DNA of 64,000 bases, taken from assembly GCF_025979705.1 (NCBI RefSeq), contig NZ_CP110136.1, forward strand, positions 1,612,001-1,676,000, given 5' to 3'. Both the position numbers and the translations under genes were made by a program. This document shows, piece after piece, positions 4,857 through 34,011 of the stretch. Position 1 is the first letter of the stretch. Each line of letters opens with the position of its first letter. Below the pieces are notes generated by a model. It worked only from the letters and a program-made list of their open reading frames with translations, was not told the origin of the DNA and did no database searches. The DNA is from Hymenobacter sp. YIM 151858-1. Its GTDB lineage: Bacteria; Bacteroidota; Bacteroidia; Cytophagales; Hymenobacteraceae.

Positions 4857-6197
4857 TTAGCGGCGCATGCCCATCATGCGGGCCATTTGCAGCATACCGC
4901 CTTTGCTCTGGCTCATCTTGTTCATGGTGCGCATCATTTTGCGCATCTCGTCGAACTGCTTCATCAGGTTGTTTACCTGCTGAATGCCCTGGCCCGAACC
5001 GGCGGCGATGCGCTTGCGGCGGGAACCGTTCATGATGTCGGGGTTGGCGCGCTCCTGCGGCGTCATCGAGCGGATGATGGCTTCGATTGGCTTGAAGGCG
5101 TCGTCGTCGATTTCCACGTCCTTCATGGCCTTGCCCATGCCGGGGATCATGCCCACCAGATCCTTCAGGTTGCCCATCTTCTTGATCTGCTCGAGTTGCG
5201 AGAGGAAGTCGTCGAAGTTGAACTGGTTTTTGCGGATCTTCTGGTTGATGCGCTTGGCCTCGTCCTCGTCGAACTGCTGCTGCGCGCGCTCTACCAACGA
5301 AATTACGTCGCCCATGCCCAGGATGCGCTGGGCCATGCGGTCGGGGTAGAACAGGTCGAGGGCCTCCATCTTTTCACCCGTCGAGATGAACTTGATGGGC
5401 TTCTCCACCACGGCCCGAATCGAAAGGGCAGCACCGCCGCGGGCATCGCCGTCGAGCTTGGTGAGCACCACGCCGTCGAAGTTGATGCGCTCGTTGAACG
5501 ACTTAGCCGTGTTCACGGCGTCCTGGCCGGTCATCGAGTCAACCACAAACAGGGTTTCGCTCGGGTTGATGGCGCGCTTCACCTGTTCGATTTCGCGCAT
5601 CATCTCCTCATCCACGGCCAAGCGGCCGGCGGTGTCGATGATGACTACCTTCTTGTTGTTCTGCTTGGCGAACTGAATGGCGTTTTGGGCAATCTGCACG
5701 GGGTTTTTGTTCTCCACTTCGGAGTACACCTCCACGCCGATTTGCTCGCCGAGCACCTTCAGCTGGTCGATAGCGGCGGGGCGGTACACGTCGGCAGCCA
5801 CCAGCAGCACGGTGCGGTTTTGCTTCTTGATAAACGAGGCCAGCTTGCCGGCAAACGTGGTTTTGCCCGAACCCTGCAAGCCCGAGAGCAGCACCACCGC
5901 CGGGTCGCCTTTGATGACGATGTCCTGCTTCTCGCCGCCCATCAGCTGGGTCAGCTCGTCGTACACGATCTTCACCATGAGCTGGCCCGGCGATACTGCG
6001 GTGAGTACCTCGCGGCCCATGGCCTCGTCCTTAATCTTGTCGGTGACTTCCTTGGCCACCTTATAGTTTACGTCGGCATCAACCAGCGCGCGGCGGATTT
6101 CCTTAACCGTCGAGGCAACGTTGATTTCGGTGATGCTGCCTTGGCCCTTCAGGGTTTTGAAGGCGCGGTCGAGCTTGGTAGATAAATTATCAAACAT
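4857..6197 (-). CDS. ffh: Signal recognition particle protein Ffh (SRP54)
   Basis: 446 aa GTPase that binds signal sequences on ribosomes and delivers them to FtsY at the membrane. Order: N domain (1-~85), G domain with P-loop GLQGSGKTT at about 106-114, DTAGR near 195 and TKLDGDARGG near 250, then the M domain from about 310. The M domain is methionine-rich at the C-terminus (MRKMMRTMNKMSQ, ARMMGMRR) and contains the RNA-binding SRRKRIAAGSG. ATG at 6197 (MFDNLSTKLDRAF). A longer reading extends past the conserved N-terminus and is rejected. Its RNA partner is encoded at 33911-33998. Confidence 0.98.
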   Translation of the reverse strand: MFDNLSTKLDRAFKTLKGQGSITEINVASTVKEIRRALVDADVNYKVAKEVTDKIKDEAMGREVLTAVSPGQLMVKIVYDELTQLMGGEKQDIVIKGDPAVVLLSGLQGSGKTTFAGKLASFIKKQNRTVLLVAADVYRPAAIDQLKVLGEQIGVEVYSEVENKNPVQIAQNAIQFAKQNNKKVVIIDTAGRLAVDEEMMREIEQVKRAINPSETLFVVDSMTGQDAVNTAKSFNERINFDGVVLTKLDGDARGGAALSIRAVVEKPIKFISTGEKMEALDLFYPDRMAQRILGMGDVISLVERAQQQFDEDEAKRINQKIRKNQFNFDDFLSQLEQIKKMGNLKDLVGMIPGMGKAMKDVEIDDDAFKPIEAIIRSMTPQERANPDIMNGSRRKRIAAGSGQGIQQVNNLMKQFDEMRKMMRTMNKMSQSKGGMLQMARMMGMRR

Positions 6198-23249: not shown

Positions 23250-24731
23250 CTAGGCAACGGTATTGCCGGCCGGCTCCACGGCGGTTTTTACCAGCTGACC
23301 CTGGCCCAGCTTGCTGTTCTTTTTGCCGTACAGGAAGTAAATAACCAAGCCGATGGCCAGCCACACGAACAGGCGTATCCAGGTGTCCTGGGGCAGCGAG
23401 AACATCATCACCAGGCAGGTAACGATGCCCAGGATGGGCACCACCGGTACCCACGGCGTACGGAAGGCCCGCGGGGCGTTGGGCTCGCGCTTGCGCATAA
23501 TCAGCACGCCCACGCACACCATCACGAAGGCCAGCAGCGTACCGATGCTGCACATTTCGCCCACTACCCGGATGGGCACAAAGCCGGCGAACAGGCTAAT
23601 GAACAAGCCCAGCAGCAGGCTCGACTTCAGCGGCGTCTGGAACTTGGGGTGAATCTGCGAGAAGACTTGGGGCAGCAGCCCGTCGCGCGACATGGAGAAG
23701 AACACGCGCGACTGGCCCAGCAAATCAACCAGGATTACCGAGGTGTAGCCGATGAGGATGGCCCCGATGATGGCCGTGCTCAGCCAGCCGTAGGGCGTTT
23801 TTTCGATGGCAATGGCCACCGGCGCGGCGCTGTCTTTGAACTCGGTGTAGTTGGCGAGGCCCGTCATGACGTAGCCGAAGAGCACGAACAACACGGTGCA
23901 CACCAGCAGCGAGCCGATGATGCCGATGGGCATGTTGCGCTGCGGATTTTTGGCCTCCTGCGCCATGGTAGCCACGATATCGAAGCCGATGAACACGAAG
24001 AACACCACGCCCGCGCCGCGCAAGATGCCGCTCCAGCCAAACTCGCCGAAGGTACCCGTGTTTTCGGGGATGTACGGCTGGTAGTTGCTGGGGTCGATGT
24101 ACTGCCAACCCAGGGCAATAAACACCAGCACCACCGACACTTTGAGGGCCACCACGATGGCGTTGAACCACGCCGAACCTTGCGTGCCGCGCACGATAAT
24201 GGCCGTAATGGCCAGCACGATCAGCACGGCCGGCAGGTTTATCAGCCCGCTTACGGTGCTGCCGTCGGCCAGCGTAGCCGTTTCCCACGGCGACATCATC
24301 AGCTGCGGGGGCAGGTGGATGTCGTACTTGCTCAGGAACTTGCCTAGGTAGTTCGACCAGCTGATTGCCACGGTAGCGGCGCCCACCGAGTACTCCAGCA
24401 CCAAATCCCAGCCGATAATCCAGGCAAACAGTTCGCCCATGGTGGCGTAGGAATACGTGTAGGCCGAGCCGGCCACCGGCACCATGGAGGCAAACTCGGC
24501 GTAGCACAAGGCCGAAAACGCGCAGCCCACCGCGGCCACGATAAACGAGAGCGTAATAGCCGGGCCGGTGTGGTTGGCGGCGGCAATGCCCGTGAGCGAA
24601 AACAGGCCCGCCCCGATGATTACCCCTACCCCAATGGCAATAAGGTTGAACGGCCCCAGGCTACGCTTAAGCGTGTGCGTACCGCTCTCGGCGGCCTCTT
24701 GCCGCAGCAGCTCCAATGATTTTTTAAGCAT
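23250..24731 (-). CDS. APC-superfamily amino-acid permease
   Basis: 493 aa, about 12-14 transmembrane helices, of the cationic amino-acid transporter/YfnA branch. Helix 1 reads LIAIGVGVIIGAGLFSLTGI, and FFVFIGFDIVATMAQEAKNP is the helix-6/7 region. ATG at 24731 (MLKKSLELLRQEAAESG). The distal leader carries a SAM-I riboswitch, so methionine or a related sulfur compound is a plausible substrate; this is inferred from regulation only. A 7-bp hairpin (24745-24762) lies just before the start codon. Stop TAG lies in a CCTAGG site. Confidence 0.9.
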   Translation of the reverse strand: MLKKSLELLRQEAAESGTHTLKRSLGPFNLIAIGVGVIIGAGLFSLTGIAAANHTGPAITLSFIVAAVGCAFSALCYAEFASMVPVAGSAYTYSYATMGELFAWIIGWDLVLEYSVGAATVAISWSNYLGKFLSKYDIHLPPQLMMSPWETATLADGSTVSGLINLPAVLIVLAITAIIVRGTQGSAWFNAIVVALKVSVVLVFIALGWQYIDPSNYQPYIPENTGTFGEFGWSGILRGAGVVFFVFIGFDIVATMAQEAKNPQRNMPIGIIGSLLVCTVLFVLFGYVMTGLANYTEFKDSAAPVAIAIEKTPYGWLSTAIIGAILIGYTSVILVDLLGQSRVFFSMSRDGLLPQVFSQIHPKFQTPLKSSLLLGLFISLFAGFVPIRVVGEMCSIGTLLAFVMVCVGVLIMRKREPNAPRAFRTPWVPVVPILGIVTCLVMMFSLPQDTWIRLFVWLAIGLVIYFLYGKKNSKLGQGQLVKTAVEPAGNTVA

Positions 24732-24744
24732 ACAAAAATGGGTA

Positions 24745-24762
24745 CACGGGCTAGCGCCCGTG
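24745..24762 (-). promoter_or_regulatory. Hairpin next to permease ribosome-binding region
   Basis: CACGGGC, loop TAGC, GCCCGTG, 14 bp upstream of the ATG. It could belong to the riboswitch expression platform or merely reduce initiation. Confidence 0.35.
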
Positions 24763-25093
24763 CGAACGAAAAAGCGCCCTGGCACCCGCCGCGCGCCTGC
24801 GCGGGGCAGGCTAAGCGGGCAGCCAACAGGCTTACGATGAAAAGATTACCAAAAAGGTTGGGCGTGGCTTGGGCCAGGCCCTAGGTGGCGGCGCTTGCCC
24901 GGGGCAGCGGGAGCGTGCCGCAGCACCACTCCCCGGGCAGCCCGGCTATGCGGCGCCTGTTGGCCTCAACAACAACAACCCACAGCACACGCGGGTGCAT
25001 GCGCGGCCGTAGCGGCGCTGGCAAACAAGCGGTGTGCGGATGCACGATGGAAACCGGAAACGGGAAAGTGGCAGGTAAAGCCCACAGCTACTT
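24763..25093 (-). other. Long leader between riboswitch and permease
   Basis: About 330 nt of GC-rich transcribed leader. Open frames in it overlap the permease in another phase and lack a recognisable product. I see no clear terminator hairpin with a T-run, so the mode of control is unclear. Confidence 0.4.
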
Positions 25094-25188
25094 GTTTTTA
25101 TATGGTCAGGAATTGGCACCGTTCCGGATGATCCGGAGGGTTGCCGGCGCTTCAGGGAGCCTGTCTCTCCACGCCTCTGTATAAAAAC
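25094..25188 (-). promoter_or_regulatory. SAM-I (S-box) riboswitch
   Basis: The minus strand shows the conserved aptamer: AGAGGCGTGGAGAGACAGG, CCTGAAGCGCCGGCAACC, a CTCCGGATCATCCGGA hairpin, then CGGTGCCAATTCCTG. P1 is a perfect 9-bp helix (GTTTTTATA at 25180-25188 with TATAAAAAC at 25094-25102). A TACCTTTG promoter lies 28 bp upstream. SAM binding normally lowers expression of methionine-related genes. Confidence 0.94.
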
Positions 25189-25216
25189 AATCCTTCAGAG
25201 TAAAGAATTGATGCCG

Positions 25217-25224
25217 CAAAGGTA
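25217..25224 (-). promoter_or_regulatory. -7 promoter element driving the riboswitch leader
   Basis: TACCTTTG on the minus strand, placed so that the transcript starts just before the aptamer. Confidence 0.6.
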
Positions 25225-25279
25225 GCCCGCAATCCGCGGATTGTGCAAACCAGCCGCTGGCCTAGGTGCCGTGGCGGGC

Positions 25280-33798: not shown

Positions 33799-33910
33799 CC
33801 GAAAAAGCTTAAAGCCCTAAAAACAAAAGATGCCCCAAAGCTAACCGTTTGTTGGCGGCGAAGGAAACGAACCTTCGCCTCGGCTAGTTGGGGCAGGCAC
33901 AAAAAAAAAA

Positions 33911-33998
33911 GCGAACCAGTATCGCACCGCTCAACCACCTACCCTTGCTACCTTCCGGTCCTGGGGGAGTTCAGCAGGAGCTGGTCGTACTGATTCGC
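33911..33998 (-). ncRNA. ffs: Signal recognition particle RNA, small bacterial type
   Basis: 88 nt. The apical domain reads CCCCCAGGACCGGAAGG then TAGCAAGGG, matching the conserved SRP loop region bound by Ffh. The 5' end GCGAATCAGTA pairs with the 3' end TACTGGTTCGC (one G-U). A TACCTTTG promoter is just upstream and a T10 run immediately follows. It is short, as in Gram-negative 4.5S RNA. Confidence 0.96.
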
Positions 33999-34003
33999 CG
34001 TTG

Positions 34004-34011
34004 CAAAGGTA
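34004..34011 (-). promoter_or_regulatory. -7 promoter element for SRP RNA
   Basis: TACCTTTG on the minus strand, 6 bp from the RNA 5' end, the usual -7 spacing. Confidence 0.75.

Follow-up and report, generated by a model that had tools for sequence, protein, structure and literature searches.

Introduction

The leader described here precedes an amino-acid permease gene in a window of 64,000 nucleotides (the whole stretch of DNA analysed). Its closest described relative is the SAM-I or S-box riboswitch, RF00162, with which it shares both the sequence and structure of the aptamer and the accompanying set of sulfur-metabolism genes. A typical SAM-I element acts through a terminator or directly on the start of the main gene; in contrast, we found neither in this leader, and the nearest start is that of a short upstream open reading frame (uORF) whose last codons are a run of cysteines.

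Several described systems resemble one part of this arrangement or another. In mycobacteria, polycysteine short ORFs before sulfur genes have been proposed to be cysteine sensors (Canestrari et al. 2020, via PMC9094748). As far as that second-hand account extends, they share with the present case the short ORF, the Cys run and the position before sulfur genes, but they are leaderless, whereas our uORF comes from a different phylum, follows a SAM-I aptamer and is not leaderless. The ppe2 gene of Mycobacterium tuberculosis is governed by a relay from a B12 riboswitch to a uORF (PMC11260477); as in our case, where translation of the uORF is predicted, a translated uORF lies between riboswitch and gene, but the ppe2 uORF overlaps its gene (AUGA), and its description mentions no run of codons that would sense an amino acid, whereas here the uORF has a Cys end and 234 nt separate its stop from the permease ATG. 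The uORFC-8-2 motif in the cysS leader of Rhodobacterales likewise has a uORF in which Cys codons stand in tandem and for which sensing of Cys-tRNA has been proposed, but it differs in having two Cys codons, an intrinsic terminator and no riboswitch (PMC8632094). Finally, the metE leader of Bacillus clausii, with its tandem SAM-I and AdoCbl riboswitches, is also one leader with two inputs, but there two aptamers act by transcription termination, whereas here an aptamer would be joined to a ribosome (PMC2258182). Excerpts of a flavobacterial transcriptome study describe leader-peptide attenuation before amino-acid operons, and those excerpts do not mention the combination of SAM-I with poly-Cys (PMC9723704). 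In our search of the open-access literature, no paper described a poly-Cys uORF attached to a SAM-I aptamer. Each half is already known; the pairing appears to be new.

We propose that the leader is a composite with two inputs, in which SAM gates a Cys-sensing uORF, such that the permease would be switched on when SAM and charged Cys-tRNA are both low. We assign this reading a probability of roughly two in three. The aptamer, the promoter, the uORF with its poly-Cys end, their conservation and the gene set that they accompany are established by the computations reported below. If the reading is true, the leader is a case in nature of one RNA that takes two inputs by linking a metabolite-binding aptamer with a stalling ribosome, and the distance of these SAM-I elements from their genes is explained.

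Aptamer and promoter

The 5' part of the leader comprises the following features.

25246..25249, minus strand: upstream promoter element, TTTG
25217..25224, minus strand: -7 promoter element TACCTTTG, of the Bacteroidota form TAnnTTTG
25188..25210, minus strand: 5' hairpin CAAUUCUUU..AAGGAUUG, the last base of which adjoins the aptamer
25095..25187, minus strand: SAM-I riboswitch aptamer, RF00162, one of five in the genome

The initial annotation, made from the letters alone, had recognized a SAM-I riboswitch with all core elements, a 9-bp P1 and a promoter just upstream, and had named the Rfam covariance model RF00162 as the check on the first of these. All three observations are borne out. 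The aptamer, 93 nt in length, scores 75.6 bits in cmscan, far above the gathering threshold of 44.4 (E 6e-16), with a match that spans the full model (positions 1-108) and breaks none of the consensus pairs. P1 amounts to 9 bp once the pair G25188-C25094 is counted, so that its ends are 25094 and 25188. We relied on cmscan for SAM-I detection throughout; a simple regular expression recovered just 19 of 40 known elements.

The -7 element ends 29 nt 5' of the aptamer, and TAnnTTTG is present in every one of the 40 orthologous leaders, many of which likewise have TTTG or TTG at the position of the upstream element. A sigma-70 promoter scan gave no match in the leader, as is expected for the phylum Bacteroidota.

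The 23-nt 5' hairpin takes up the stretch that leads from the likely transcript start to the aptamer. When leaders are assessed sequence by sequence (as was done for this hairpin and for the one before the permease ATG, below), a hairpin is flush with the aptamer in 38/40 orthologous leaders, and its pairing is kept despite sequence change, for example as CAAUU/GAUUG, CGAGC/GCUUG and CAACG/GGUUG. Such a hairpin could stack on P1. Within the genus, the aptamers of cysH and the ATP-grasp gene are also preceded by sequence similar to it.

A poly-Cys uORF within the long leader

Between the aptamer and the permease gene we find a uORF that begins almost immediately after P1.

25086..25105, minus strand: A-rich uORF start region, the upstream half of which is the P1 3' strand AUAUAAAAAC
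24966..25085, minus strand: poly-Cys leader peptide uORF, VGFTCHFPVSGFHRASAHRLFASAATAAHAPACAVGCCC followed by a stop, 39 codons with a GTG start
24969..24977, minus strand: terminal Cys codons TGT TGT TGT, followed by the stop TGA
23250..24731, minus strand: APC-family amino-acid permease (CAT/BcaP-like), 493 codons

The permease had been described as the first gene downstream, behind a leader of about 360 nt. The length is right (363 nt from P1 to the ATG), and the gene is indeed an APC permease, but the leader holds a uORF that had gone unseen, and the first ORF downstream is thus the 39-codon ORF with the Cys run, 25085-24966. Nor is the aptamer unusually distant from its gene, as had been supposed. 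Since four of the five SAM-I leaders in the genome are about 300 nt or longer, the exception being the short metH leader, a long leader is usual in the genus and is not peculiar to the permease.

The GTG lies 9 nt 3' of P1 and about 125 nt 3' of the likely transcript start, behind the aptamer, and the peptide terminates in GCCC-stop. According to the folding model, the 20 nt before the GUG have a predicted mean unpaired probability of 0.73 when free, as compared to 0.45 when P1 is imposed.

Among the 40 permease leaders, a run of at least two Cys codons occurs in 38 and of at least three in 32, whereas dinucleotide shuffles yield such runs at rates of 1.2% and 0.06%, respectively; in two leaders, L086 and L109, the Cys run is missing from the frame of the expected start. 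The uORF start codons fall 2-9 nt after P1, mostly at 9 nt. The Cys codons are a mixture of TGT (124) and TGC (68), and synonymous exchange between the two is seen among relatives; the run is therefore not simply a preserved DNA repeat. The body of the peptide, on the other hand, drifts freely and differs even between near relatives, while the start position and the Cys end stay constant. A drifting body with fixed start and Cys end resembles the behaviour of leader peptides. Two points count against a functional leader peptide: the uORF in the window ends in just three Cys codons and has a GTG start, and the uORFs of the nearest relatives have no strong third-codon-position bias outside the tail. 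A search for other Cys4-stop ORFs in the same genome produced no good leader-like candidate outside the SAM-I set.

From the uORF to the permease start

The RNA between the uORF and the permease contains two structures of possible relevance.

24955..24964, minus strand: arm 1 of a weak long-range helix, GCCAACAGGC, the exact reverse complement of 24822-24831
24822..24831, minus strand: arm 2 of the same helix, GCCUGUUGGC, the exact reverse complement of 24955-24964
24744..24763, minus strand: pre-start hairpin GCACGGGC GCUA GCCCGUGU, 12 nt 5' of the permease ATG

The long-range helix is paired in the predicted minimum free energy fold, and the two nearest relatives keep part of it. Its first arm begins just past the uORF stop, where a ribosome located at the Cys codons or at the stop would cover it. 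An alifold analysis of the post-uORF regions of four clades, however, yielded no common fold. The pre-start hairpin (24763-24744) is accompanied by a T run. A stem of at least 6 bp, 8-26 nt before the permease start, is found in 31 of 39 leaders, compared to 10.7 in shuffles, although the sequences differ.

That no standard terminator is visible in the leader had been noted at the outset. In the wider comparison, candidate intrinsic terminators occur in 19/40 permease leaders versus 17.8 in shuffles, and none is convincingly conserved. After the uORF in leaders from elsewhere in the order, the corresponding figures are 9/22 versus 3.6, which is not decisive. A search 3' of the uORF for a conserved terminator/antiterminator pair found none.

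How might the two inputs be combined? Ribosomes of Bacteroidota do not use Shine-Dalgarno pairing, and initiation in Flavobacterium requires low structure from -20 to +20 along with upstream adenines, including those at -12 and -13 (PMC6847099). When SAM is high, the aptamer would close P1, and the A-rich start region would be hidden, in part, within the P1 3' strand AUAUAAAAAC; the uORF would then go untranslated and the permease would be off. When SAM is low, P1 would open and ribosomes would translate the uORF. If charged tRNA-Cys is low as well, a ribosome would halt on the Cys run near the end of the uORF, and the halted ribosome would prevent the downstream RNA from adopting an inhibitory fold, such that permease is made. 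Candidate targets of the halted ribosome are the helix 24955-24964/24822-24831 and the pre-start hairpin; candidate last steps are transcription attenuation, Rho action and unmasking of the permease start. Since no conserved terminator was found, we consider Rho-dependent polarity or translational unmasking to be just as likely as intrinsic attenuation. What we infer from sequence in this scheme is that SAM binds, that it gates the uORF start, that the uORF is translated, that ribosomes stall at Cys codons, and in which direction expression responds. If the scheme is true, concealment of an A-rich start region would be a clear form of riboswitch output for the Bacteroidota, which do without Shine-Dalgarno pairing.

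Recurrence across the order and alternative explanations

We surveyed SAM-I elements in the order Cytophagales outside the family, sorting them into those with an AU-rich P1 and those with a CUUAUC P1. A run of at least three Cys codons lies directly 3' of the aptamer at 22/44 AU-P1 loci, from eight other families, as opposed to 0/21 CUUAUC-P1 loci. The remaining half of the order's AU-P1 elements have no clear Cys run.

Two further tests do not presuppose a Cys-tailed ORF. In the first, we located the longest TGY run 20-240 nt downstream, without requiring an ORF, and compared its frame to that of the first ATG or GTG 5-15 nt after P1. The run is in frame at 22/22 loci of the order, 14/14 of the family, 15/15 other loci of the genus and 26/29 permease leaders, a total of 77/80, where chance predicts one third. 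Because loci within groups share descent, independence is greatest in the order-level set. In the second, the last 12 codons of 47 peptides not picked for Cys were found to be enriched 37-fold in Cys and 7-fold in Met, with all other residues at 2-fold or less.

It is important to ask whether the two parts of the leader need interact at all. They might be separate switches placed one after the other, with the SAM-I element working by its own route (for example transcription termination or mRNA decay) while the poly-Cys uORF attenuates in response to cysteine without being gated by the aptamer. The uORF start is just outside the aptamer, so that contact is unnecessary, and some AU-P1 SAM-I leaders without any Cys run must still function. 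We nonetheless regard this arrangement as unlikely: the start codon lies 2-14 nt from P1 in every family, the Cys-run ORF is limited to the AU-rich P1 type, and we found no terminator of the aptamer's own. The fixed geometry between start and P1 indicates instead that the P1 3' strand is shared.

Alternatively, this might be an ordinary SAM-I riboswitch controlling the permease, with the uORF a product of chance or a remnant. Transporters downstream of SAM-I riboswitches are well known, and the aptamer alone would account for the regulon assignment made below, but given the frame test, the shuffle test and the recurrence across the order, we find this explanation very improbable. Least probable of all is that the Cys-tailed peptide is itself functional, for example as a metal- or sulfide-binding microprotein made at low SAM, for while Cys-rich peptides are capable of binding metal and the uORF sits where a riboswitch-controlled ORF would, its body is unconserved in near relatives and wholly different between operons, several unrelated copies within one genome precede different sulfur genes, and searches of the uORF peptides against NCBIfam and Pfam gave no match.

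Beyond the order, a search for the uORF pattern in the rest of the class returned chance-like matches alone, without the aptamer core. Two weakly similar cases of aptamer plus uORF were seen outside the order, L239 and L230, in which an AU-P1 SAM-I element is followed by a short ORF with many Met and Cys codons (MCSPSMRMRMPMSCFSYMCA) or with a CC pair.

A sulfur regulon with one or two proposed sensors

The five SAM-I elements of the genome precede cysH, the permease, metH, metY (O-acetylhomoserine/O-acetylserine sulfhydrylase) and an ATP-grasp gene. Throughout the genus, the accompanying poly-Cys ORFs end in ...CCCC(M/L)xMRRACC at cysH (in most cases), in ...CCCCCW at metY and in ...ACCC at the ATP-grasp gene, while no poly-Cys uORF was found at the metH elements. 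At the ATP-grasp locus of this genome (L368, C1:652300-657700), a SAM-I element at 5139-5237 and its poly-Cys uORF are followed by a RimK-like ATP-grasp gene and a luciferase-family monooxygenase of SfnG/SsuD-like type, the best profiles of which, both below cut-off, are dimethylsulfone monooxygenase SfnG and alkanesulfonate monooxygenase. Here the two genes form a separate SAM-I unit; six relatives have the permease in third place in such an operon.

More broadly, the genes behind an AU-P1 aptamer with a Cys-run leader comprise metY, cysH, a sulfite/nitrite-reductase-like gene, an NhaC-like transporter, TonB-dependent receptors, ATP-grasp genes and the permease. The AU-P1 elements before four metX-like genes (L144, L152, L157 and L197), by contrast, have no Cys run. 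These gene sets suggest a simple division: genes for sulfur import and fixation, the step common to cysteine and methionine, appear to carry both sensors, and methionine-specific genes the aptamer alone.

We are inclined to think that leaders of this kind form AND-gates throughout the Cytophagales, in which the SAM-I aptamer licenses a Cys/Met-rich sensor peptide, SAM being read first and charged tRNA-Cys second, and that sulfate reduction, sulfhydrylation and uptake of sulfur compounds are thereby jointly controlled. Methionine and cysteine synthesis share enzymes, such as O-acetylhomoserine/O-acetylserine sulfhydrylase, and AND-gate leaders, if real, would explain how a single regulon balances the two amino acids. 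The signature of a Cys-tailed ORF behind an AU-P1 SAM-I element would then also place transporters and uncharacterised enzymes in sulfur acquisition.

One AU-P1 element, L237, has no poly-Cys uORF, and the nearest long ORF opens about 11 nt after P1. Given this spacing, the aptamer may act directly on the start of the long ORF.

Association of the riboswitch with the permease

A SAM-I element precedes the permease in 8/8 genomes of the genus. From 120 genomes of the family we assembled 47 genes of at least 72% identity which, together with the window's own, form a set of 48 orthologs. In 40 of the 48, a SAM-I element lies no more than 900 nt 5' of the permease, and for six more a SAM-I element with poly-Cys ORF heads the operon of ATP-grasp, luciferase-like monooxygenase and permease. 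In contrast, SAM-I was absent from all 12 homologs sampled beyond the ortholog group (51-58% identity), from a Rufibacter homolog of 63% identity, and from the flanks examined of related permeases in Spirosoma, Larkinella, Chitinophaga, Pedobacter and Mucilaginibacter.

Presence at 40/48 orthologs and in six operons, together with absence from 12/12 homologs outside, supports the assignment of the permease to sulfur metabolism. Thus, of the earlier proposal that the permease serves methionine or a sulfur metabolite, membership of a sulfur regulon is supported by these comparisons; methionine is one of several candidate substrates. The two remaining orthologs, L365 (G063) and L366 (G078), have no SAM-I element in about 4.5 kb upstream, and one of them lies behind a TonB-receptor-like gene.

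Identity of the permease

Both profiles and structure comparison place the permease in the APC family. It scores 195 bits against Pfam PF13520 (AA_permease_2; gathering threshold 27) and 573.7 bits against the NCBIfam BcaP profile NF053761, which is under the cut-off of 690. The permease of H. jeollabukensis is 89% identical to it.

The nearest solved structure is that of GkApcT (5oqt), in which Met321 governs selectivity for side-chain size (PMC5803215). The permease has Asp at this site, residue 336, as do 22/35 of the relatives compared, whereas distant relatives and the homolog in the same genome have Met, Leu or Thr. Asp336, in the putative substrate pocket, may alter specificity, and the substrate is consequently not simply inferable from these homologs. 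Methionine is a candidate, as are other sulfur amino acids and organosulfur compounds.

Elsewhere in the window, Rfam identifies a Bacteroidales small SRP RNA at 33905-34007 on the minus strand, with a score of 72.6 bits.
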